A stretch of 64,000 bases of DNA, from the NCBI GenBank assembly GCA_013152945.1, contig JAADFL010000078.1, positions 1-64,000 on the forward strand. The letters run 5' to 3'. Below the pieces are notes generated by a model that was not told where the DNA came from, searched no databases, and worked only from the letters and a program-made list of their open reading frames with translations. Below are positions 20,584-32,191 of the stretch, piece after piece; positions within the stretch are counted from its first letter, which is position 1, and the number at the start of each line of letters is the position of its first letter. Source of the stretch: Deltaproteobacteria bacterium (GTDB lineage: Bacteria; Myxococcota_A; JAADFL01). The translations under genes were made by a program, and so were the position numbers.

Positions 20584-21807
20584 CTAGTTATCGCAAAGCC
20601 AGGTAATGATCATGGTATGGCAACCTGCATCGGTCCAGTACCCCCCGTTGTCATAGTTTACCCTGTCCACTTCATAACCTCTGACTGTTACCTTGTCCCA
20701 CAGCTCGAGCCTGCGTATCCATGTCTCTACTGTATCCGAAAACGGGATGGCATGCACGTTTATGAAAAGATCGTCCTGAGATCCGACGCAGGCCTGGCCT
20801 TTCCAGTATGCAGTGTGCCCGTTTTGTCCCACCTCGCAATCCGGATCCGCCTTGGATCCGCTGGTTACCAGCACATCTCCTATCATCGGGGGCTGGTCGT
20901 CATAGAACCAAAACGATCGCACCACACCGGGGTATGAAGAAATCGCATCCGCAGGCGTGTCACCTTCGAGCAAGATGGTGTATCCATCACCCCTGAGCAC
21001 TGGTTCCGGATCAGATGGAAATCCATCGGAACAAAGAGGCCTTGCCCTGTCAGCCTCACCTTTTAACGGCAGATCCATTGATCCGGATTCAAGGTCCAAG
21101 GTCACCATGCCTTGGTGTGTTCCTGGTTGCGGCGGAACATAATGCACGTTGAACTTTACCGAATCACCGACTTTCAGAGATGCAGAATGAGAAGGAATTA
21201 CATCGGTAATTGAAAAAGAACCATCGCCATCATCTGTTACGCCGACCTTTTCAAGCATCCTGTCCTTACCAGGATCCACGTTGAAACATTCGACAGGATC
21301 CTCGTACACAAAGTCAACAACCGCTTTGCCGAAATCTATTGCACCCGGAACACATCGCAACGGATCATCACAAGCTCCACGGACAACCAGAGGAATTTTT
21401 ACCACCCCGGGAGCCGGCCGCAGTACCAGGTTGAGAAACGCCACGGCATGACAAGCACATCCGGCTTCAACCGAATCATCAGGCTTGAAACTCAGGGTAA
21501 GAGTTGTTGAACCGCCGGGCGGAACATTCTTCCTGGGTATTTCATCCACCAGTTCAAAAGCTCCGCAGGCGGTATCAAGGTTGTTCAAGGTGGCTTGTGT
21601 CAGCCATGCATCCCTGCCGCCTGTATTGGACAGCGTCAATTTTGCCTGGATGGCGCCGTTACCGGGCTCTATGTCTCCCAGGTCAATATACTCGGGTGAG
21701 ACGGTCACGAACCCGTCCGAGGCCGTATCACCTGAGCCGCAAGCGGGCATGCTCGCCCACAGGATACATAAAAGAAGAAAAATCAACTTATTTTTAAAAA
21801 CCCTCAA
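20584..21807 (-). CDS. lipoprotein with ASH/choice-of-anchor-D-like repeats
   Basis: 407 residues from a TTG start with a weak SD. Signal peptide with lipobox MPAC at residues ~20-23. Two Ig-like units of the ASPM/SPD-2/Hydin type are visible: VSPEYIDLGDIEPGNG... LTLSNTGGRDAWL and CVPGAIDFGKAVVD... PSHSASLKVGDSVKFNVHYVPPQPG. The C-terminal ~170 residues are unassigned, with several Cys. Such proteins are common secreted or surface components in deltaproteobacteria. Probably co-transcribed with the SGNH hydrolase. Confidence 0.78.
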   Translation of the reverse strand: MRVFKNKLIFLLLCILWASMPACGSGDTASDGFVTVSPEYIDLGDIEPGNGAIQAKLTLSNTGGRDAWLTQATLNNLDTACGAFELVDEIPRKNVPPGGSTTLTLSFKPDDSVEAGCACHAVAFLNLVLRPAPGVVKIPLVVRGACDDPLRCVPGAIDFGKAVVDFVYEDPVECFNVDPGKDRMLEKVGVTDDGDGSFSITDVIPSHSASLKVGDSVKFNVHYVPPQPGTHQGMVTLDLESGSMDLPLKGEADRARPLCSDGFPSDPEPVLRGDGYTILLEGDTPADAISSYPGVVRSFWFYDDQPPMIGDVLVTSGSKADPDCEVGQNGHTAYWKGQACVGSQDDLFINVHAIPFSDTVETWIRRLELWDKVTVRGYEVDRVNYDNGGYWTDAGCHTMIITWLCDN

Positions 21808-22400: not shown

Positions 22401-23963
22401 ATGAAAAAGCATGGATATCGGCTATTAAGTAAATTATTCATACTGGTGTGGTCTTTTGTCTTGCTGGGATCTTTTTCGTCCTTTGGTAAGGGCTTTGGCA
22501 AGGGAGGTGGAGCCAGCAGGTTCCGGGAAGCCCTGGCAGACGTACTTTGCAGTGTGGACTTGTTGGACGTGCGCGTTGGTGCGGTCGTCATTGACCTGGA
22601 AACAGGGCGTTTGCTTTTCGGCCATAACCAGGATGAGCTGTTTAACCCGGCTTCCGTGAGCAAGTTGTTTACAGTAGCAGCTGCTCTGGACATCCTTCGA
22701 CCGGAATACAAGTTTCCGACCATATTCAAGTCCGTGAGCAAGCCGGATAAGGACGGTGTGTTGCATGGCAACCTCTATGTTATCGGAAGAGGTGATCCAA
22801 GTCTTGTAAGCGAAAGCATGTATACCATGGTCAGATCTTTGAGGGAAATAGGCTTGAAGCGAGTCACCGGGAGGCTCATTGTCGATGAATCCTATTTCGA
22901 CGAAGTAAAGGAGAACACGGGTTGGAATTGCGACGATTCGTCCGCCGCTTACAGGGCAAGGGCCGGGGCGTTCAGCTTGAACTTCAATTCCATTAGAATG
23001 ATGGTGAGGCCCGGAGCAAGGCCCGGCCTATTGGCACAGGTTGTGGTCAGTCCGGATTGCTCATACGTGAAGCTGGAAAATCATGTTACCACGAGTAGGC
23101 GGAGGACCTGGATAAAATATTCAAGCCATGATGATGGCAAAAAGACAGTGATCCAGCTCAAAGGCAGGATTTATTACCGTTCAGGTCCGAGAAGGATCTA
23201 TGCGCGAGTGATGGATCCGGCTGCGTATGCAGGAAGTGTACTGGCTGAAATGATGAACCGCCAGGGGATTCGAATAAAGAGGAATCCTCTTGTGCGACCC
23301 GTTCCAAATGATGCGAACAATACCATACTCGTAGTAAATTCACCCCCCCTGGGGCAATTGGTGCGTAACTTGTTCAAGAAATCAAACAACTTCCAGGCCG
23401 AGCAACTCCTGAAAGTGCTGGGCGCTCACAGCGCAGGCGCGCCGGGCACATGGGAAAACGGCATGCGTGCCGTACAAGGCTTCCTTGCCGGAATAGGCAT
23501 AAGGCCGGGCTCCTATAGGTACAGAAACGGGTCCGGTCTCGGGGATGCAAACCTGTTTACCCCGATGCAGATAACCAAGTTAATTAGGTGGGTGGTCTTG
23601 TCGAGCGGCATCAGTCCCGAGTTTCTTTCGGCATTGCCTATTGCGGCTGCAGATGGAACTATCAGGTCGAGGATGGCGGACACATCCGCCGATCGTAACG
23701 TAAGAGCAAAGACAGGCTCGTTGGAGAGTGTCAGTGCTCTTGCAGGAGTGGTGGGTGGTCCGGGCAGGGGAGGCTTGGTGTTTGCCATGATAATGAACGG
23801 CAGGCTGCGAGGCAGGATTAGGCAGATGTGGAAATTCCAGGATGCCTTTGCAGCAATTTTAGCACGAAAAAGTAATATCGGGACCGAGGAAAACAAGAAA
23901 AATAAAGACCATTCATCCGGTCACAACATGTTCACAGGGAATGTGGAACATGCCAACCATTGA
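22401..23963 (+). CDS. dacB: D-alanyl-D-alanine carboxypeptidase/endopeptidase (PBP4 family, DacB)
   Basis: 520 residues with an N-terminal signal/anchor (LSKLFILVWSFVLLGSFSS). Penicillin-binding active site motifs: S85-V-S-K88, S328-N-N330 and K437-T-G439, with the PBP4-family insert between motifs 1 and 2 (~110-320). It trims peptidoglycan stem peptides in the periplasm. The C-terminus carries an extra polar tail after the last domain. SD is weak. It faces the TPR lipoprotein gene with a terminator-like element between. Confidence 0.93.
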   Translation: MKKHGYRLLSKLFILVWSFVLLGSFSSFGKGFGKGGGASRFREALADVLCSVDLLDVRVGAVVIDLETGRLLFGHNQDELFNPASVSKLFTVAAALDILRPEYKFPTIFKSVSKPDKDGVLHGNLYVIGRGDPSLVSESMYTMVRSLREIGLKRVTGRLIVDESYFDEVKENTGWNCDDSSAAYRARAGAFSLNFNSIRMMVRPGARPGLLAQVVVSPDCSYVKLENHVTTSRRRTWIKYSSHDDGKKTVIQLKGRIYYRSGPRRIYARVMDPAAYAGSVLAEMMNRQGIRIKRNPLVRPVPNDANNTILVVNSPPLGQLVRNLFKKSNNFQAEQLLKVLGAHSAGAPGTWENGMRAVQGFLAGIGIRPGSYRYRNGSGLGDANLFTPMQITKLIRWVVLSSGISPEFLSALPIAAADGTIRSRMADTSADRNVRAKTGSLESVSALAGVVGGPGRGGLVFAMIMNGRLRGRIRQMWKFQDAFAAILARKSNIGTEENKKNKDHSSGHNMFTGNVEHANH

Positions 23964-24089
23964 CTCCAGAGTCGTTGGCGATATTTTTACCTATATACCA
24001 CTGGAGCATCGGGGTGACCGGCAAGGCTCGATGACGAAATAATATCCGCAGGTATTTCGAGGAAGAGCAATGCAACAAGGCGCTTCTAG

Positions 24090-24150
24090 GGCCGGCGTGA
24101 TGCGGGAATTACTTTTGTAACGGCTCAAAATCCCGGCCTTTATTTTTTTT
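24090..24150 (+). terminator. probable rho-independent terminator after dacB
   Basis: GGCCGG (24090-24095) can pair with CCGGCC (24133-24138) across a long loop, immediately followed by TTTATTTTTTTT. An inner CGGGA/TCCCG alternative exists. The large loop lowers confidence. The remaining 23964-24228 holds no gene. Confidence 0.4.
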
Positions 24151-24228
24151 GGGGGCGGGTCAGGTTGATTTGCCTTAGTGAACAGGAAACCGGATTCGGT
24201 TATCAGGACCGTGCATGGTCCGAAACAA

Positions 24229-25014
24229 TTACTTCTGCGGGTGCGCCAGTTCGAACACATACCTGGCAAGCTTTTCGGCTGTTATACCTACTTTTACGCC
24301 GTAGAGTTTTCTTGGTTTCAGCCAATTGGCTGAAACAGCCCTGGCATCTTTGATTGGGCCTTCCGGCATCTTTACCGGAGCCTTGCCGCAGAGTTTTTTC
24401 GCAATCTCCTTCAACTTGTTCATTCCGTTTTCGAAAGCCTTTTTCTTGAGTTCCTCTTCTTTCGGCTTATGTCTTGGAGCCTTTGCCTCACCCTGGACCA
24501 AGAGGATTTTCTTGGTCTTGTCATATCCATCGATCTTTTCCAATTTCGAAGGCAAAGCAGCGAAGAATGCCTGGAACCTGCATTCCCTTGCCTTTGCCAT
24601 GGTTATCTTCTTTCTATCCTGCGGCACCCTCAGGGTTGCCACTTTGTCGTACCATTTTGCAGCTTCCATGAATTTTTTCTGCTTGTATAGATCTTTTCCC
24701 CTCTCGGTATACATGGTAGCCAAGCTGTCGTATGCATCACCCAAGTCCGGTTTTTTCTGAATCGCTTTTTTATACCATTTCTCGGCTTCAGCGTATTCCC
24801 CTTTTCCGTCAAGGGCCTTCGCCTTACCCAGGATTGCGGAGACATAGTTCGGATCTTTTGCAAGAGCCTTATCATAGCTCTTGATAGCCTGGTCGAACTT
24901 GCCGAATGCAGCAGCGGTATCGCCCGTGGACGTCAATTTTTCCGCAGTTTCACACCCGGCAAGGAAAGCAAACAATGCCAGTACAGTGATTGGAAAAAGG
25001 AATCTCTTGAACAT
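24229..25014 (-). CDS. TPR-repeat lipoprotein
   Basis: 261 residues. Start chosen at the ATG with GGAGG 6-7 nt upstream, giving signal peptide MFKRFLFPITVLALFAFLAGC (lipobox Cys21). Two to three TPR units follow (~38-125; KYDQAIKSYDKALAKDPNYVSAIL-like), then a polar region and a C-terminal domain of unknown type. Likely an envelope scaffold. It has its own promoter at 25091-25119. Confidence 0.85.
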   Translation of the reverse strand: MFKRFLFPITVLALFAFLAGCETAEKLTSTGDTAAAFGKFDQAIKSYDKALAKDPNYVSAILGKAKALDGKGEYAEAEKWYKKAIQKKPDLGDAYDSLATMYTERGKDLYKQKKFMEAAKWYDKVATLRVPQDRKKITMAKARECRFQAFFAALPSKLEKIDGYDKTKKILLVQGEAKAPRHKPKEEELKKKAFENGMNKLKEIAKKLCGKAPVKMPEGPIKDARAVSANWLKPRKLYGVKVGITAEKLARYVFELAHPQK

Positions 25015-25090
25015 CTCATTCCTCCTTTTGATAGAAGTATCAATCTTACCCAAACGCACTACTCCCTTGGATTCACACTTGTTCGAATGA

Positions 25091-25119
25091 GCTATACCTG
25101 TCATGCAATCAGGTGTCAA
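25091..25119 (-). promoter_or_regulatory. promoter of the TPR lipoprotein gene
   Basis: Minus strand TTGACA, 17-nt spacer, TATAGC, ~75 nt before the ATG at 25014. Full consensus -35 and good spacing. Confidence 0.6.
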
Positions 25120-25216
25120 GGTTACAATAAATAAACGTGATAGCCGAATTAGAATGTCGGTTGTACTGCCGAATGAATATGTCAGTAGGAAGGGGATTCG
25201 TCCCATACGGGTTCGG

Positions 25217-25240
25217 GAACCTGCTGGTGAACCTGCTGGT
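25217..25240. repeat. 12-bp tandem duplication
   Basis: GAACCTGCTGGT occurs twice head to tail directly after the stop codon of the CC-module gene. No function is evident; a replication-slippage product is likely. Confidence 0.9.
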
Positions 25241-25243
25241 GAG

Positions 25244-28200
25244 CTATTGGCAATACGGATACAAGGTGACGTGGGTATCCCCCGTGCCGCACCAATAGGC
25301 CCACTTTCCAGGCCCAGCATTATCGGTCAACTCGACCTTCTTGTCGGTATAGCATTCATCCGCGGCGATGCAGTCGTGGCCGGGGTTGGCATCATACCAC
25401 GCGATGTACGTGTGGACGGTATCGCCCGCCTCCACGTGTCCGGTCACGGTGTAGTCCCCGCAAGAGGCCGTGTACAGACCCGCCGGATCGCCGCCCTGGT
25501 GATACAACTTGAGCTGTGGCAGGATATCCTGCTGCATCTGCAATATAAAGCCGGCGACCGCCGTGCCCGCGGGGCACCAGCAGAGTCCCCAGTCAGAGAC
25601 CTCGGCATTGGTCACGATCTTGGCATTGCCGGACTCACACTTGAACTTCTGCAACTGTTGGTATTGGTCCCAGGCGTATTTTTCGCCACCGGTCACGCAG
25701 CAGACTGTATCGCAATCACCGGCCGGGTGAACGATTCCGCCGTTTGATTTGCACCGTAGTCGAATCATCGTCGAGCCCGTTCCGTTCTGTTCGCAGCAAA
25801 CCGTGTCACACGCAGTTTCGTCCCAATCCACGATGGTGGCCGCGATTGTGCAAAGCTGTGCTTGTGTGGTCCCGTAATTGTCGTTGCCGTAATCGCAACA
25901 CACAATGTCCGTGCATACTTCATCGGGCACGGGCGTACCGCCGCCCGTTTTGCAGACCGCCTTGATGACATTCCCCTTGTACACTTCGCCCGTATGGCAA
26001 CAAGATTTGAAGCAATGGTCGTTGTCGGCGGCTTCGCCGCCCTGGGCCTGGCACTCCGACAGTGTCTCGATCCACTGGTACGTGTCGTCGGTCTTGTGAC
26101 AGCACGTGTACGTTGGTTCACACTTTCCCCCGTTGCAGACCTGCTCGACCTGGTTCACGGGACACGTCCCGCAACTGCCGCCGCAGCCATCGTCCCCGCA
26201 TTCCCTGCCGGTGCAATCAGGGGTACATTCATGTCCACAGGTCCCCTTATTGCACACTTGGTCCCCGGGGCAATTCCCGCAACTTCCCCCACACCCGTTA
26301 TCGCCGCACTCCAGGTCCAGGGCCTTGCACGGGTCCTGTCCGCCCAGATTGTAGCACTCGTACTCGCTCAGGAACTCGGTCTTTTTGTCGTGCAGGCAGC
26401 AGACCCCAACACAAGCGGCCTGCGGTGCGTCCAGCGGCATGCCCGCGTCATCCTGGCATTCGCCCTCGGTCATTGTCTGGTAGTCGGCGGCGAGTTTGCA
26501 GCATACATCCATGCATAGATGCTTGTCTGCCCGGACCTCGCCCAAAATGCACTCATCTTCGGTCGACAGCTTGTATCCTGCGTCCGTCTTGCAGCACACC
26601 TTGTCGCAGAACTCCATGTCCAGGGTCTTGAACCCCAGGTCGGCGCAATAGCCCCGGGCCATCTTGTCGATGCCCCCACTAGCATCGCAACATGCGAGCT
26701 CGCACAGGGACTCGTCAGTCTGCATCTCTCCCTGCGCTGCGCATGCCCCCGCCGCGATCGTCACGTAATCGCTGCCCACCTTGCAGCACACGTCACCGCC
26801 CTCGCACTTGGACGCGTCTGGTTCCACCTGGCCAGTGACATGGCAATCGCCTTCGGACATCTTCTCGTAGGCGTCGCCCACCCTGCAGCATACATCCATG
26901 CACAGGGCCTTGTCCTGCTGAGGCTCGCCCTGATTGTCGTTGCATTCCTTGGCGCTCATGAATGCGTATCCACTGGCATCATTACAGCACACGTCGTCGC
27001 AGTACTTCATGTCGAGGGTCTTGTATCCAAGGTCGTTGCAATACCCCTTCGCCACCTTTTCAATCCCATTGCTGGTATCGCAACACACGGTTTCGCACTT
27101 CGTGTCGTCGAGCTCCACCTCCTGCCCCGCACCCTCACACTCCCAGGACTGGACGAAGCGGTAGTCGCCGGATTCCCCGCAGCACACGCGGCACTTGGAG
27201 GAATCCGCCTCCTTTCCTCCTTGGTCCTTGCATTCGCCCAGCCTAATCCCCTCGAAACCCCCGCCGATATTGCAGCACTTCATCACGCACAGGGAGGAAT
27301 CAACAATCTCACCGCCCTTTGCGTCCTCGCAGATATCGGAAGGCAGGGATAAGTACTTTCCATCCGGCAGCTTGCAGCAATCGACGCACAGTGCGTCGTC
27401 CACCTCTTGGCCGTGAGTGCCAGCGCAGACCCCCCGCGGTACCCTGATATCGATTCCCAACTCGTCCTGGCAGCAAACCATGATGCAGTAGCTCTCCTCG
27501 ACCTCCTTGCCGCTGTGGAGTTTGCAGTTTCCCACAGGAATCATCCCGTAGTCGTCATCGGCCAAGGCGCAGCAGACATTCTTACACAAACCCGCGTCCA
27601 CCTTTTTCCCTTCTAGCTTCCGGCACTTTCCCATGTCCGGGAGGGTTATGAAAACCTCCCCGCTGTTTAATTCGTACTGGCAACAAAGCGGTTCACAATC
27701 AGAATCAGGGCTGACTTCCCCCCACTCGTGTCTGGCAAGGCAATCGTCGATGTCCAGGAACTCGTACTTGAAGAGGTCCGTTCGGCAGCACACCGTGCCT
27801 GGGACCCCTGCAGCACCTTTGGAAAAGTGCGTGACCGCAGCATCCACCGTCCCCTGACCGGAGTCCACCGAGGATTCCAGGGCATGAAAGGCGCCCTCCG
27901 CGTCGGTCCAGAACACGCGCAGAGCGTACCCGTACGACTCATGCGGAAGCCGGACGGGATGGTAGAAGAACCGTACGGTGGCCTGGACCGCGAACTCCAG
28001 GCCCTCCGGCTTGAACAGGTACACATCCGAGGCCAGTGTCAGCCCCTTTGGATGCTCGCCGGTGGCAGTGATGGTAAGAGTGGTGGGTACATCCAGGGCG
28101 CCCTTCGGCACAGTAAGTATCACTTTGCCCGGGATCGCCACCTTCCCTCCTTCCGGTCCGATCATCCCGGACGCGGTCACACCGCCCGATCCTCCCCCCC

Positions 28201-28309
28201 CGCATCCTGCTGTTACAGCGATGCCGACGATGAGTGCGATCCATCGTATCGCGGTTCCAAGTCCAACAACATTCATACCTGACTTGTCGTGCTCGCCAAC
28301 CAGTTTCAT
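25244..28309 (-). CDS. secreted lipoprotein with ~20 tandem four-cysteine (CC) modules
   Basis: 1021 residues from the ATG with GGAGGG 10 nt upstream; ATG 28276 would also keep the signal peptide (lipobox TAGC). A ZU5-like domain follows (GPEGGKVAIPGKVILTVPKG). Then, at DNA 27790 to ~25633, come 20 modules of ~33 residues of form CC-x(~15)-C-x(~13)-C-x2-3. Between modules 15 and 16 two CGD(D/N)GCGGSCG segments intervene. A ~120-residue C-terminal domain with six Cys ends it. Modules 8-11 and 12-15 look like a block duplication. The gene is visibly GC-richer than its neighbours. I know no named family for this module; all disulfide-type roles are inference. Confidence 0.88.
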   Translation of the reverse strand: MKLVGEHDKSGMNVVGLGTAIRWIALIVGIAVTAGCGGGGSGGVTASGMIGPEGGKVAIPGKVILTVPKGALDVPTTLTITATGEHPKGLTLASDVYLFKPEGLEFAVQATVRFFYHPVRLPHESYGYALRVFWTDAEGAFHALESSVDSGQGTVDAAVTHFSKGAAGVPGTVCCRTDLFKYEFLDIDDCLARHEWGEVSPDSDCEPLCCQYELNSGEVFITLPDMGKCRKLEGKKVDAGLCKNVCCALADDDYGMIPVGNCKLHSGKEVEESYCIMVCCQDELGIDIRVPRGVCAGTHGQEVDDALCVDCCKLPDGKYLSLPSDICEDAKGGEIVDSSLCVMKCCNIGGGFEGIRLGECKDQGGKEADSSKCRVCCGESGDYRFVQSWECEGAGQEVELDDTKCETVCCDTSNGIEKVAKGYCNDLGYKTLDMKYCDDVCCNDASGYAFMSAKECNDNQGEPQQDKALCMDVCCRVGDAYEKMSEGDCHVTGQVEPDASKCEGGDVCCKVGSDYVTIAAGACAAQGEMQTDESLCELACCDASGGIDKMARGYCADLGFKTLDMEFCDKVCCKTDAGYKLSTEDECILGEVRADKHLCMDVCCKLAADYQTMTEGECQDDAGMPLDAPQAACVGVCCLHDKKTEFLSEYECYNLGGQDPCKALDLECGDNGCGGSCGNCPGDQVCNKGTCGHECTPDCTGRECGDDGCGGSCGTCPVNQVEQVCNGGKCEPTYTCCHKTDDTYQWIETLSECQAQGGEAADNDHCFKSCCHTGEVYKGNVIKAVCKTGGGTPVPDEVCTDIVCCDYGNDNYGTTQAQLCTIAATIVDWDETACDTVCCEQNGTGSTMIRLRCKSNGGIVHPAGDCDTVCCVTGGEKYAWDQYQQLQKFKCESGNAKIVTNAEVSDWGLCWCPAGTAVAGFILQMQQDILPQLKLYHQGGDPAGLYTASCGDYTVTGHVEAGDTVHTYIAWYDANPGHDCIAADECYTDKKVELTDNAGPGKWAYWCGTGDTHVTLYPYCQ

Positions 28310-28376
28310 GACACCGAATCCCTCCACACAGAAAATATAAACGTAACCGTTCACCCGGTCCCTAATAACCTATGTG

Positions 28377-28400
28377 ATATCCTAACGAGTTGTATATCCT
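28377..28400 (-). promoter_or_regulatory. direct-repeat operator candidate
   Basis: Two copies of AGGATAT (minus strand) at 28377-28383 and 28394-28400, 17 bp apart, lie just downstream of the predicted transcription start of the CC-module gene. Could be a repressor site. Confidence 0.3.
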
Positions 28401-28409
28401 AGTCTATTA

Positions 28410-28437
28410 ATGATACGCTCAATACCAGGGGTGTCAA
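28410..28437 (-). promoter_or_regulatory. promoter of the CC-module protein gene
   Basis: Minus strand TTGACA, 16-nt spacer, TATCAT, ~100 nt before the start codon. Both hexamers are near consensus. Confidence 0.6.
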
Positions 28438-28631
28438 GTGAATACGCAGCATTTCAGGGGCTCCGCCCCAAGGGACCGAATCAGCAGAGCACAGCATCGC
28501 AGCCGGGCCTCAGGCGGTCGCCGGGTGGCAGAGGCTTTTGTGCGGGAACTCATCTTGCATGACCATAAATACATTTCATGCCGGAGCACGAGAAAAAATG
28601 CACTCGGGAATCTACGGCCCTCTCATCAGCG
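28438..28631. other. gene-free region upstream of the CC-module promoter
   Basis: The 322 bp between the CC-module gene and mpl hold the promoter above and, here, no gene. A compact hairpin GGGGC-TCC-GCCCC is at 28457-28469, without a T-run on either side. No other structure seen. Confidence 0.5.
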
Positions 28632-30146
28632 CTAGCTATTAGTTGTTTCAGAGGATTGGCGAAGTAAGGCTGGGCCCCTGTCACGAAGCTCTCTTAACAG
28701 CTTATGCGACATTCCGCCGAAATCGCCGTTGGACATGAGTAGTAATATGTCACCCGGTTGAGCCAGTTTTCCAACCTCCCCGGCGGTTTCGTCCACGTCT
28801 TCAATTACTGCTGCATCAATGCCCTTTTTCCGAAGACGTTCGGCAAGCTCATGTACCTGTAAAAGACGGCTTTCGGGCAGATTCCTGGGGTTGTAGGGCT
28901 TGGCGATCCTGACGTGGTCGGCTTTGGACAGGCTTTCCAGGTATTCCTGTTGGTGTATGTTCGTCCGGGCCGTGTTGCTCCTGGGCTCGAAAATTGCCCA
29001 CAGCTTGCCTCTGGAATGGCCTTCGCCTGAATAGAAAGATCTTACAGCCTCGATAGTGTGGGCAACAGCAGTCGGATGGTGGGCAAAATCGTCCACTAAA
29101 AAAACCTTGTTTTCACTGGTCAACAGTTCCTGTCGCCTTGCCACCCCGTGGAAGGAAGACAGAGTTCCCGCTCCCTCTTCGAGTGGAACCCCGAGGAAAC
29201 GGGCCAGGCCAAGTGCTGCAAGGGCGTTCAATGCATTGTAACGACCGGGAATGTTCAGCTCGGCCTTGATATTTTTCCCGGTGCCCTTTTCGGCCACGGT
29301 AATCCTGCTCTTTCCCCTGCCGGTTTGAAAATCAACCAGGCGGATATCGCAGTCCGCATCTTCTCCATAACGCAAGGTCTTGCAAGGCGCCTTTCCGGCA
29401 ACCCCGGCAGCACGCGAGGCCCCGCCCCAGAACAATAGTTGCCCCTCCTTTGGCATGCCAGCAGCCAGCTCGACAAATGATTTTTCAATGCTTTTCACGT
29501 CGGCATAGATGTCCGCATGGTCGAACTCCAGGCTGGTGATCACCGATACTTCGGGCCTGTAATGAACGAACTTGGGCCTCTTGTCGAAGAAAGCCGTATC
29601 ATACTCGTCGCCTTCGAGCACAAAAATCCGGCCATGCCCGAGCTTGAAGGTGCTGTTGTAGTCTTTGAGTACGCCCCCTGCGAGAAAAGAAGGATCTTCT
29701 CCCAGTGTTATCAAGATGTGAGCCAATATCGAAGTGGTGGTCGTCTTGCCGTGTGTTCCGGTGACAACTGCTACCCGTTTGCCTTTGAGAAAGAATTTGT
29801 AAAGTGTCTCGGGCATGGAGAGGAATGGAATCTTGTCCATCCATAACTTGATTACCTCCGGATTTTCAGGTGTACATGCATTGCCTACAACGACCAGGTC
29901 GGGCCTTGGCTCCAGGTTGGATGCTTTGTAACCTTCCAGAACACGTATCTGCAGGTCATGGAGTATCTTGTTCATGGGCGGGTACAATGCTTGGTCACTT
30001 CCATAAACATCGTACCCCGCATGCTTGAGCAATCCGGCCAGGGAGCCCATGGCAGTGCCTCCGATTCCGATTAAATAGATGTGCTCCACCTTTTCGGGCA
30101 AGGCAGGTCTTTCGAGATTCCTCGGCGCCTGTTTGGGCAGAGTCAT
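28632..30146 (-). CDS. mpl: UDP-N-acetylmuramate:L-alanyl-gamma-D-glutamyl-meso-DAP ligase (Mpl)
   Basis: 504 residues from the ATG with GAGGAGA upstream. Mur ligase layout: N-terminal Rossmann LIGIGGTAMGSLAGLLKHAG (24-43) with YGSDQALYPPM (48-58), typical of Mpl; central ATP-binding P-loop TGTHGKTTTTS (129-139), EGDEYDTAFFDKRPKF and EFDHADIY; C-terminal domain with FEPRSNT. It rejoins recycled murein tripeptide to UDP-MurNAc. Overlaps the serine hydrolase gene by ATGA, so the two are coupled. Confidence 0.95.
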   Translation of the reverse strand: MTLPKQAPRNLERPALPEKVEHIYLIGIGGTAMGSLAGLLKHAGYDVYGSDQALYPPMNKILHDLQIRVLEGYKASNLEPRPDLVVVGNACTPENPEVIKLWMDKIPFLSMPETLYKFFLKGKRVAVVTGTHGKTTTTSILAHILITLGEDPSFLAGGVLKDYNSTFKLGHGRIFVLEGDEYDTAFFDKRPKFVHYRPEVSVITSLEFDHADIYADVKSIEKSFVELAAGMPKEGQLLFWGGASRAAGVAGKAPCKTLRYGEDADCDIRLVDFQTGRGKSRITVAEKGTGKNIKAELNIPGRYNALNALAALGLARFLGVPLEEGAGTLSSFHGVARRQELLTSENKVFLVDDFAHHPTAVAHTIEAVRSFYSGEGHSRGKLWAIFEPRSNTARTNIHQQEYLESLSKADHVRIAKPYNPRNLPESRLLQVHELAERLRKKGIDAAVIEDVDETAGEVGKLAQPGDILLLMSNGDFGGMSHKLLRELRDRGPALLRQSSETTNS

Positions 30147-31255
30147 GCTGATTCTCCTCTTGTCATGGAACTCCCCGCTTTCCAGAGGGCATTGTGTATT
30201 TCGATCCTGGCCTTGGCCATACCCCGGTCCTTTCTGTCCGGGTGCACGCGGTTGGTCAATAGCACGGCAATCATTTTGGTCTCCCTTGAAATCCACACGG
30301 ATGTGCCTGTAAACCCGAGGTGGCCGAACGCGCTTTGTGTGCCTGGAATGGAGCCTGCCCTGGAATCTTGTTCACTCGGACGGTCCCATCCCAGTAACTT
30401 CCCGCTCGGGGTTTGAACGAATTTCTTTGAGCAGGCACTTAATAGTCCCTTGTCTTCCAGTCCTTCCAGCCATATCCTGGAAAGGCGCAGCACCGACATG
30501 GCGGTACCGAACAAACCTGCGTGACCCTCCACCCCTCCTGCGGCCCACGCGTTTTCATCGTGAACCTCTCCTCTCAAGACCCGGTTTCTCCAGGAACATT
30601 TTTCAGTGGGAGCGACATCTCTTCCTTGTGCCTGCGGCCTCGATTGTTTCAAGAGATTGAAGAACATTGCACCGTCTATGTCCAAAGGTTTGAAAAGATG
30701 TTTTTGGGCCAGTACGTCGAGGGGAGAGCCTTCCAAAACTTCGAGCAGTCTGCCGAGTATGATGAAATCGAGGTCGGAGTATACGTATTTCTCCCCCGGC
30801 TCATTTTCAAGAGGCTCTGATAGAACCATTTCCAACAGTGCCTTCCTGCTTTCCGCTGATGGCACGGGAAGTCCATTTAGTATCAGTCGTCTGAAGAAAG
30901 GTCGCCATGACGGTAAGCCGGATGTATGGTCCAAAAGTTGCCTGATTTTCAATCTTCCGATTGATTTTCCATTAGTGTCTGGAAAGTACTGCGACAGAGA
31001 AGAATCCAGATCCAGGATTTTTTTGGATACCATGATACAGGTAAGAGCGGCGGTCACCAGGGGCTTTGTCAGCGATGCCAGATCATACAATGTCGTATCC
31101 GGATTTGGTACAGGAGAGGACGGCTCATAGTCCAATCGGCCGAATCCCTTTGACATGAGTATTTGTTTCGAGTCTCCGAGAACAAGTGTACCGCCCGGAA
31201 AAACCCTTGAACGGACTGCCGTGGATATACCTTCCTGGAGCTTGGGAATGTTCAT
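30143..31255 (-). CDS. serine hydrolase of the beta-lactamase/PBP-like family
   Basis: 370 residues, no signal peptide. Class C beta-lactamase/DD-peptidase fold: S61-L-T-K64 with DLASLTKPLVTAAL, HTSGLPSW (110-117), Y159-S-D161 in the place of YxN, and HLGFTG (312-317). Several relatives are esterases or peptidases acting on peptidoglycan fragments. The position between mpl and an LD-carboxypeptidase gene suggests it cleaves recycled muropeptides in the cytoplasm. The substrate is inferred from context. Confidence 0.88.
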   Translation of the reverse strand: MNIPKLQEGISTAVRSRVFPGGTLVLGDSKQILMSKGFGRLDYEPSSPVPNPDTTLYDLASLTKPLVTAALTCIMVSKKILDLDSSLSQYFPDTNGKSIGRLKIRQLLDHTSGLPSWRPFFRRLILNGLPVPSAESRKALLEMVLSEPLENEPGEKYVYSDLDFIILGRLLEVLEGSPLDVLAQKHLFKPLDIDGAMFFNLLKQSRPQAQGRDVAPTEKCSWRNRVLRGEVHDENAWAAGGVEGHAGLFGTAMSVLRLSRIWLEGLEDKGLLSACSKKFVQTPSGKLLGWDRPSEQDSRAGSIPGTQSAFGHLGFTGTSVWISRETKMIAVLLTNRVHPDRKDRGMAKARIEIHNALWKAGSSMTRGESA

Positions 31256-31258
31256 GCT

Positions 31259-32191
31259 TCAAAACACCGCAGGTTCGTCAATGGTCAGTGTCAGGGAAGA
31301 TGTGTCCAGTGTCGCAAGAGCTCCTATCGGCACTGCCAGGTTATCCTTCCTGTGACCAATCTCGAGTCCGGTCAGCACGGGCACATCCAGGTCTGAAAGA
31401 CGTTCTCTTGTCACCCTGACCAATTCGTCTTCCGGTTCGACTTCCGAAGAAAGGTGGCCGACGGCTATGCCTGCGGCTTGGCCCAGGATGCCGGCAAGCC
31501 GGAGTTGGGTCAGCATCCTGTCCAGCCTGTAAGGTTTTTCTCCGATATCCTCGAAGAACAGGATTCTGCCGCGGGCGCAAACCTCGAGAGGAGTTCCCAA
31601 GGTGCTGCATATAAGTGACAGATTGCCGCCGCACAGTCTGCCCGTGGCCTTGCCTTCAACGACTGCTGATTCGCCGGTCAATTGCAAGCCACCGTCTCCC
31701 CTGAATAAAAGCCGCCTAAGGTGGCGCATGCTTTTCTTTGACAGCCCGGCCAGGCTGCTCAAAGTCGGCCCGTGGATTGTTATCAAATTGAAAAGCCTGG
31801 AGAAATGGTTCAGCAGCACGGTTAAATCCGAGAAACCGACAATGAGTTTTGTAACTGTTTTGGGCAGAAGCTGTTCCATTGTCTCCAATGTTCTCATGGT
31901 GCCATAGCCCCCGCGGGCAAACCATAGACAATCGTATGAAGTATCAGAAAGGTATTGCAAGAGTTCGGATCTTCTTCTTTGGTCGTTTCCGGCAAGGTAA
32001 CCTTGTTTGGACATTATTCCGTCGGGTATCTCCAAATCGAGACCCAGGGATTCGAGAACCTGGATGCCGGCTCTCAACGAAGCAGGGTCTACCGGCCCCG
32101 CAGGTGCCGTGGTGACGACTTTGGACCCCGGTTTCAAGCGTGGAGCACGATGCATAAGCAACAATTTAACACCAGGGCTTTCGTTCCTCAA
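31259..32191 (-). CDS. ldcA: LD-carboxypeptidase (peptidase family S66)
   Basis: 310 residues. S66 signatures: RGGYGTMR (93-100), nucleophile S121 in IVGFSDLTVLLNHF, E214 in LFFEDIGEKPYR, and H280 in IGHRKDN, the Ser-Glu-His triad. The enzyme removes the terminal D-Ala from tetrapeptides before Mpl recycles the tripeptide, so it fits the next two genes. Start is TTG; an ATG 12 codons in (32155) is possible. First gene of a three-gene recycling operon. Confidence 0.92.
   Translation of the reverse strand: MRNESPGVKLLLMHRAPRLKPGSKVVTTAPAGPVDPASLRAGIQVLESLGLDLEIPDGIMSKQGYLAGNDQRRRSELLQYLSDTSYDCLWFARGGYGTMRTLETMEQLLPKTVTKLIVGFSDLTVLLNHFSRLFNLITIHGPTLSSLAGLSKKSMRHLRRLLFRGDGGLQLTGESAVVEGKATGRLCGGNLSLICSTLGTPLEVCARGRILFFEDIGEKPYRLDRMLTQLRLAGILGQAAGIAVGHLSSEVEPEDELVRVTRERLSDLDVPVLTGLEIGHRKDNLAVPIGALATLDTSSLTLTIDEPAVF

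Follow-up and report, generated by a model that had tools for sequence, protein, structure and literature searches.

An array of four-cysteine modules in a lipoprotein-like bacterial protein belongs to an unlabelled family that is probably related to a domain of iRhom

INTRODUCTION

Tandem cysteine-rich repeats of exported proteins are known from TraA of the Myxococcales, whose repeats (TIGR04201) have been proposed to form a rigid surface stalk (PMC3325183). The array described here shares that general trait with TraA, whereas the TIGR04201 repeat is described with three invariant and two weaker cysteines and has no CC module. Another system enters the comparison through sequence and structure searches, namely the iRhom homology domain (IRHD) of iRhom1 and iRhom2, which is inserted in a membrane pseudoprotease between TM1 and TM2. 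All 16 cysteines of the IRHD are engaged in eight disulfides, and the domain was reported as a unique fold for which published searches gave no structural relative (PMC11248996, PMC10148629). The IRHD binds protein and contacts ADAM17 (PMC11248996), and iRhoms are described as metazoan only (PMC3149277).

Here we analyze a gene in a 64,000-nucleotide stretch of a Deltaproteobacteria contig from a relative of the myxobacteria (JAADFL010000078.1, positions 1 to 64,000; hereafter, the window). An earlier note on this DNA had read the product as a possible surface-located rod of about 20 tandem four-cysteine modules between a lipobox- and ZU5-like N terminus and a C-terminal domain. The array is real and more general than that note held, and its interest lies mainly in an unnamed family and a probable relative in iRhom: the window module is no orphan and is the four-Cys variant of a large bacterial family that carries no label.

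RESULTS AND DISCUSSION

Architecture of the CC protein

The CC gene is a minus-strand open reading frame (25244-28309) encoding a lipoprotein-like product. Its longest frame, 25244-28354 on the minus strand, begins with GTG at 28354 and has 1036 codons, and residue numbers are counted from that GTG; the true start is probably the ATG at 28309, which agrees with the coordinates of the earlier note and is favored by a GGAGGG just upstream. Plus-strand open reading frames across 25862-27352 were set aside as apparent shadows of the coding strand. The features of the protein, all on the minus strand and in the order of the chain, are as follows.

28202-28309, minus strand: signal peptide with a lipobox-like VTAGC (Cys 51), read by eye from the translation
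27809-28183, minus strand: ZU5-like domain, from phmmer and profile matches
26327-27790, minus strand: CC array block 1, 15 four-Cys modules, residues 189-676, from the Cys pattern, shuffles, homologous arrays, and AlphaFold2
26114-26308, minus strand: two CGDxGCGGxCGxC linker units, from the sequence and similar units in relatives
25580-26104, minus strand: CC array block 2, 5 modules (the last one atypical), residues 751-925, from the Cys pattern and profile A1 matches
25247-25579, minus strand: C-terminal domain of about 110 residues, no family found

We regard this domain order and the repeat itself as established. The protein has 20 CC pairs, mostly spaced by 31-37 residues, and the pattern CC-x13/14-C-x12/13-C fits 17-19 units depending on strictness. 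Under the definition CC-x12-16-C-x10-14-C, 17 units are counted, while shuffled residues gave a mean of 0.14 and a maximum of 3 in 20,000 shuffles, so that the four-Cys pattern of the earlier note is borne out. The count of about 20 modules stands as well, with the correction that the two CGDxGCGGxCGxC units split the array into a block of 15 and one of 5. The second half of module 15 is short, and the first half of module 20 is long. The 69% identity of modules 8 and 12, against 20-45% for most other pairs, indicates that block duplication gave rise to part of the array.

At the N terminus, the proposed lipobox is plausible and less than ideal, with T at -3, and the CC protein is most likely an outer-membrane lipoprotein, as predicted from its sequence; a surface location is likely. 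The ZU5-like domain was joined by phmmer to similar domains in five relatives (L031, L012, L016, L010, and L021). A profile of six domains of this kind matches ankyrin ZU5 structures at an E value of 8e-9, and all six match Pfam ZU5 (best E value, 1.7e-8), the window domain by itself at 0.023, below Pfam's cut-off. By these profile matches, the ZU5 assignment is real at the family level and tentative for the window domain alone. The resemblance to the ZU5 domains of ankyrin, ZO-1, and UNC5 concerns the N-terminal domain of the CC protein, which, unlike those, is joined to a CC array within a bacterial protein that is exported. CGxxGCGG-type units similar to the linker are frequent in relatives and in L077 are placed after the CC array. 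A search of 284 genomes of the phylum gave no clear relatives of the C-terminal domain, with weak matches at best at an E value of 0.002.

Genomic neighborhood

A Mur ligase gene lies upstream of the CC gene, with beta-lactamase-family and LD-carboxypeptidase genes beyond it, and a TPR gene lies downstream; because about 320 bases separate it from the Mur ligase gene, we take the CC gene to stand alone. Cell-wall genes are found around it within 22401-32191 of the window (a D-Ala-D-Ala carboxypeptidase of family S13, the Mur ligase, the beta-lactamase family, and the LD-carboxypeptidase). At 20584-21807 on the minus strand lies another gene for a lipoprotein-like product, which has several cysteines and a HYDIN/VesB-like Ig domain. 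Directly behind the CC stop codon, at 25217-25242, is a perfect 12-base tandem repeat of 2.2 copies, GAACCTGCTGGT. The G+C content at 26001-28000 is 0.60, compared with 0.46-0.54 in the remaining window, which may reflect amino acid content (Cys, Gly, Asp, and Ala) or foreign origin.

Oxidative folding is available to this organism, as indicated by DsbA-type genes elsewhere in its genome. VKOR and DsbA domains are adjacent, in frames of equal length, at G000:C148:16992-18068, apparently one 419-residue frame that is likely a fusion, and a 709-residue frame at G000:C96:15377-17023 contains three further DsbA domains.

The CC module lies outside named families

No model of Pfam or NCBIfam covers the whole CC protein, 50 single four-Cys modules, or 84 six-Cys modules (see below), consistent with the earlier remark that no such named repeat family was known. 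Searches of Pfam, NCBIfam, and the PDB with the whole protein gave chance matches only; CitF was one of these and was rejected as an identity. TIGR04201 was likewise dismissed as the parent family, its NCBIfam model being absent at E values up to 10 for the whole protein and up to 1 for single modules. The Pfam and NCBIfam matches of relatives are to their other domains only: FGE-sulfatase, MYXO-CTERM, dockerin, DUF7901, TSP_3 (weak), and ZU5 (weak, below cut-off). No CC modules were found in the plasmids searched, and two pattern matches in viral contigs showed no CC-module frame on follow-up.

Relatives were sought by a protein search of 58 genomes and with profile A1 in 379 genomes belonging to the window's phylum. 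These searches found a recurrent family: homologous CC modules occur in 21 of the 379 genomes, in several families, and in the window's own genome profile A1 matched the CC protein only. The window array has the pattern by which we define the family from these relatives (CC, Cys at about +14/15, G or GG, and Cys about 12-13 residues further on, repeated), and we consider the family established. Array length ranges from 3 to 66 modules. The longest array, in one open frame of L076 (1060-7776, minus strand), begins right behind a lipoprotein-like start, and the frame encodes hardly any other domain; L077 reproduces the window order, with a lipobox LPAC, a ZU5-like domain, 16 modules, and a CGxxGCGG linker. 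L031 combines ZU5 and CC modules with FGE-sulfatase, and L035 and L069 have 12-13 modules and a C-terminal domain common to both. Proteins of L032, L034, L066, L070-L073, and L083 consist of an N-terminal domain without a Pfam match, a TSP_3-like stretch, 13-20 CC modules, and a MYXO-CTERM-like tail; MYXO-CTERM passed the curated cut-off in L034 and in one protein of L032, and the other tails were recognized by eye. Two genes of this architecture often lie side by side, and their N-terminal domain resembles by eye terpenoid-cyclase-like repeats, a candidate likeness.

A six-Cys sister form

GTDB genomes were scanned with the pattern CC-x0/1-LPDG-x9-C-x3-GG, which selects LPDG/GG modules, so that the sample is biased to them and includes out-of-frame chance matches. 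Among the matches listed, the six-Cys pattern is mostly from Planctomycetota (Phycisphaerae) and also from Eisenbacteria, Zixibacteria, Acidobacteriota, and Myxococcales. The consensus of this form is GACCLPDGxC-x7-C-x3-GG-x-C-x4-C, with cysteines numbered C1 to C6. Four-Cys modules that were collected without an LPDG/GG filter likewise have LPDG and GG as their most frequent residues. Six-Cys modules occur in 11 of 141 genomes of the window's phylum, and three genomes (G037, G067, and G123) contain both forms.

Alignment of the four-Cys and six-Cys profiles with hhalign gave 94-95%, and two-module profiles gave 95% with an E value of 2e-8. The single-module score of 27.9 stands above all 100 controls in which the cysteines were fixed and the other columns permuted (9.6 ± 2.5; maximum, 18.4), which shows a kinship beyond Cys spacing. 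The CC start, the LPDG turn, C4 after 13-14 residues, GG, C5, and the predicted secondary structure are common to both forms. In contrast to the six-Cys module, window modules hold only C1, C2, C4, and C5, often with Y, F, or I at the place of C3, and follow each other closely, with 1-5 residues from C5 to the next CC; with neither C3 nor its presumed partner, which is C6 or else C4′ (a further Cys next to that of the helix), the window array lies outside the six-Cys subfamily. On these alignments, the four-Cys unit is a reduced form of the six-Cys module.

The cysteines missing from the window modules show a pattern that suggests a pairing. Among 269 modules with C3, C6 is missing in 50 of the 54 that have C4′ and present in 183 of the 215 without it, tallies that count modules and not independent events. 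Since C4′ and C6 replace one another, the most straightforward interpretation is that either of them can be the partner of C3. With C3, C4′, and C6 missing, the four-Cys modules are left with C1, C2, C4, and C5 for two disulfides, and we infer pairing among these four.

Predicted fold

The fold prediction called for in the earlier note was run with AlphaFold2 on four modules of the window, supplied with ten additional rows, and gave a confident hairpin-plus-helix unit (mean pLDDT, 89.9; pTM, 0.54), built in the order strand (CC), turn, strand, helix (C4), and short helix (C5). Two six-Cys modules were predicted with the same order of elements (pLDDT, 87.7), and we take the predicted secondary structure as established. 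Of the disulfide rod once envisaged, a disulfide-stabilized extracytoplasmic module is likely; the straight rod does not follow, since pTM values of 0.54-0.57 leave module orientation open. Foldseek with the four-Cys model found nothing significant in the PDB or BFVD.

A probable link to iRhom

When the six-Cys profile from Planctomycetota and others was compared with the PDB, iRhom1 and iRhom2 were matched at E values of 0.0087-0.011, the next match being at 2.3. A second six-Cys profile, built from modules of the window's phylum only, matched iRhom at 0.002-0.0036 and nothing else up to an E value of 10. All six cysteines of the profile align with iRhom, and a partial second copy lies earlier in iRhom1. 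The iRhom module concerned spans about residues 570-606 of chain 8snl_B. The four-Cys profile A6 had no match in the PDB up to an E value of 10, iRhom included, so that the link of the window protein to iRhom is transitive, via the six-Cys form. The six-Cys form agrees with the IRHD (8snl, 9o58, 9q7y, and 9xy4) on all six cysteines and on the fold; the IRHD, however, forms no array, whereas the window protein is an array in a single exported chain without a rhomboid core and without a placement between TM1 and TM2.

Judged by sequence and models, a module of the IRHD is a probable homolog of the six-Cys form. The fuller proposal, that the IRHD and an ancient extracellular CC module of bacteria, strung into arrays there, have a common origin, with the reduced four-Cys form of that module in the window protein, we hold to be evenly poised. 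Its rival is a convergence of small CC-hairpin-helix modules on a similar fold in unrelated families, which is a real possibility if a somewhat doubtful one. Convergence would suit an iRhom match that is short (37 residues), dominated by cysteines, and just at 0.002-0.011, the metazoan-only description of iRhoms (PMC3149277), and the lack of intermediates between bacterial modules and the IRHD in this analysis. Against it, iRhom is the sole PDB match below an E value of 2 with one profile and the sole match up to 10 with the profile from other genomes, and further positions align besides the six cysteines. At 27.5 and 31.0 bits, the iRhom segments lie above all of 200 Cys-fixed column shuffles (6.5-7.4 ± 4.2; maximum, 25.5). 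Foldseek with the six-Cys model also placed iRhom chains at ranks 1 to 3 of 350,542 (probability, 0.82-0.95), although at E values of 0.2-0.6 and with a method that also uses sequence. We found no report of a relation between bacterial CC modules and iRhom in the literature searched.

Possible role of the array

We somewhat favor the view that the CC protein is an outer-membrane lipoprotein whose roughly 20 disulfide-closed modules form a chain that acts as a stalk or spacer, in the four-Cys form of an iRhom-related family. Each module would be a beta-hairpin with CC on its first strand, followed by a helix with the third Cys and a short helix with the fourth. Two disulfides, from C1 and C2 to C4 and C5, would keep it rigid, and the third disulfide of the six-Cys form would be gone, an aromatic or aliphatic residue often taking the place of C3. 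The chain would then most likely serve as a stable stalk or spacer that keeps the ZU5-like and C-terminal domains clear of the membrane. This role is proposed by analogy with the TraA repeats (PMC3325183) and is the best-supported idea; a length varying from 3 to 66 modules is as expected of a spacer, and export of the family is supported by homologous arrays in proteins with lipobox-like or MYXO-CTERM signals.

The main rival is recognition by the modules, in which the array itself would be a surface of diversified modules that bind glycans, matrix, or proteins of other cells, its length and sequence tuned by block duplication. We consider this unlikely, if well worth bearing in mind. The modules are diverse (20-45% identity) in a kept frame, yet neutral drift of a spacer gives such diversity too, and there is no conserved surface motif besides Cys, G, and LPDG. 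That the IRHD of iRhom contacts ADAM17 as a protein-binding domain (PMC11248996) and that some relatives, such as the 66-module protein of L076, have very few other domains would suit recognition, while variable copy number fits a spacer better. Metal binding in a zinc-ribbon-like or metallothionein-like manner, instead of disulfides, seems very improbable. Four cysteines per unit are a common number for a metal site; however, the protein is exported and the genome encodes oxidizing machinery, the existence of a six-Cys form and the way in which C4′ and C6 alternate agree with paired cysteines, and weak single-member matches to zinc-binding families are at chance level. Disulfides are further favored by iRhom, the one solved relative, in which all 16 cysteines are so engaged.

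The CC-module family thus lies outside the curated libraries searched, even though exported arrays are present in the window's phylum and Planctomycetota commonly carry the six-Cys form. If the link to iRhom is true, an extracellular domain that controls ADAM17, and with it the release of TNF and EGF-family ligands, gains bacterial relatives where published searches had none, and the origin and disulfide logic of the IRHD would become open to study in small bacterial modules.

Some relatives carry additional cysteines. The early modules of L066, L070, L071, L072, L073, and L083 contain mini-units such as CCPDV, CCDEEL, and CCASDM at a fixed early position of the array, with the fourth Cys of the module doubled there, possibly forming an extra disulfide. 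In L075 (G166:C71), the LPDG turn of three consecutive modules contributes a fifth Cys (CCLLPCG and CCTLPCG), which may provide a link between modules.
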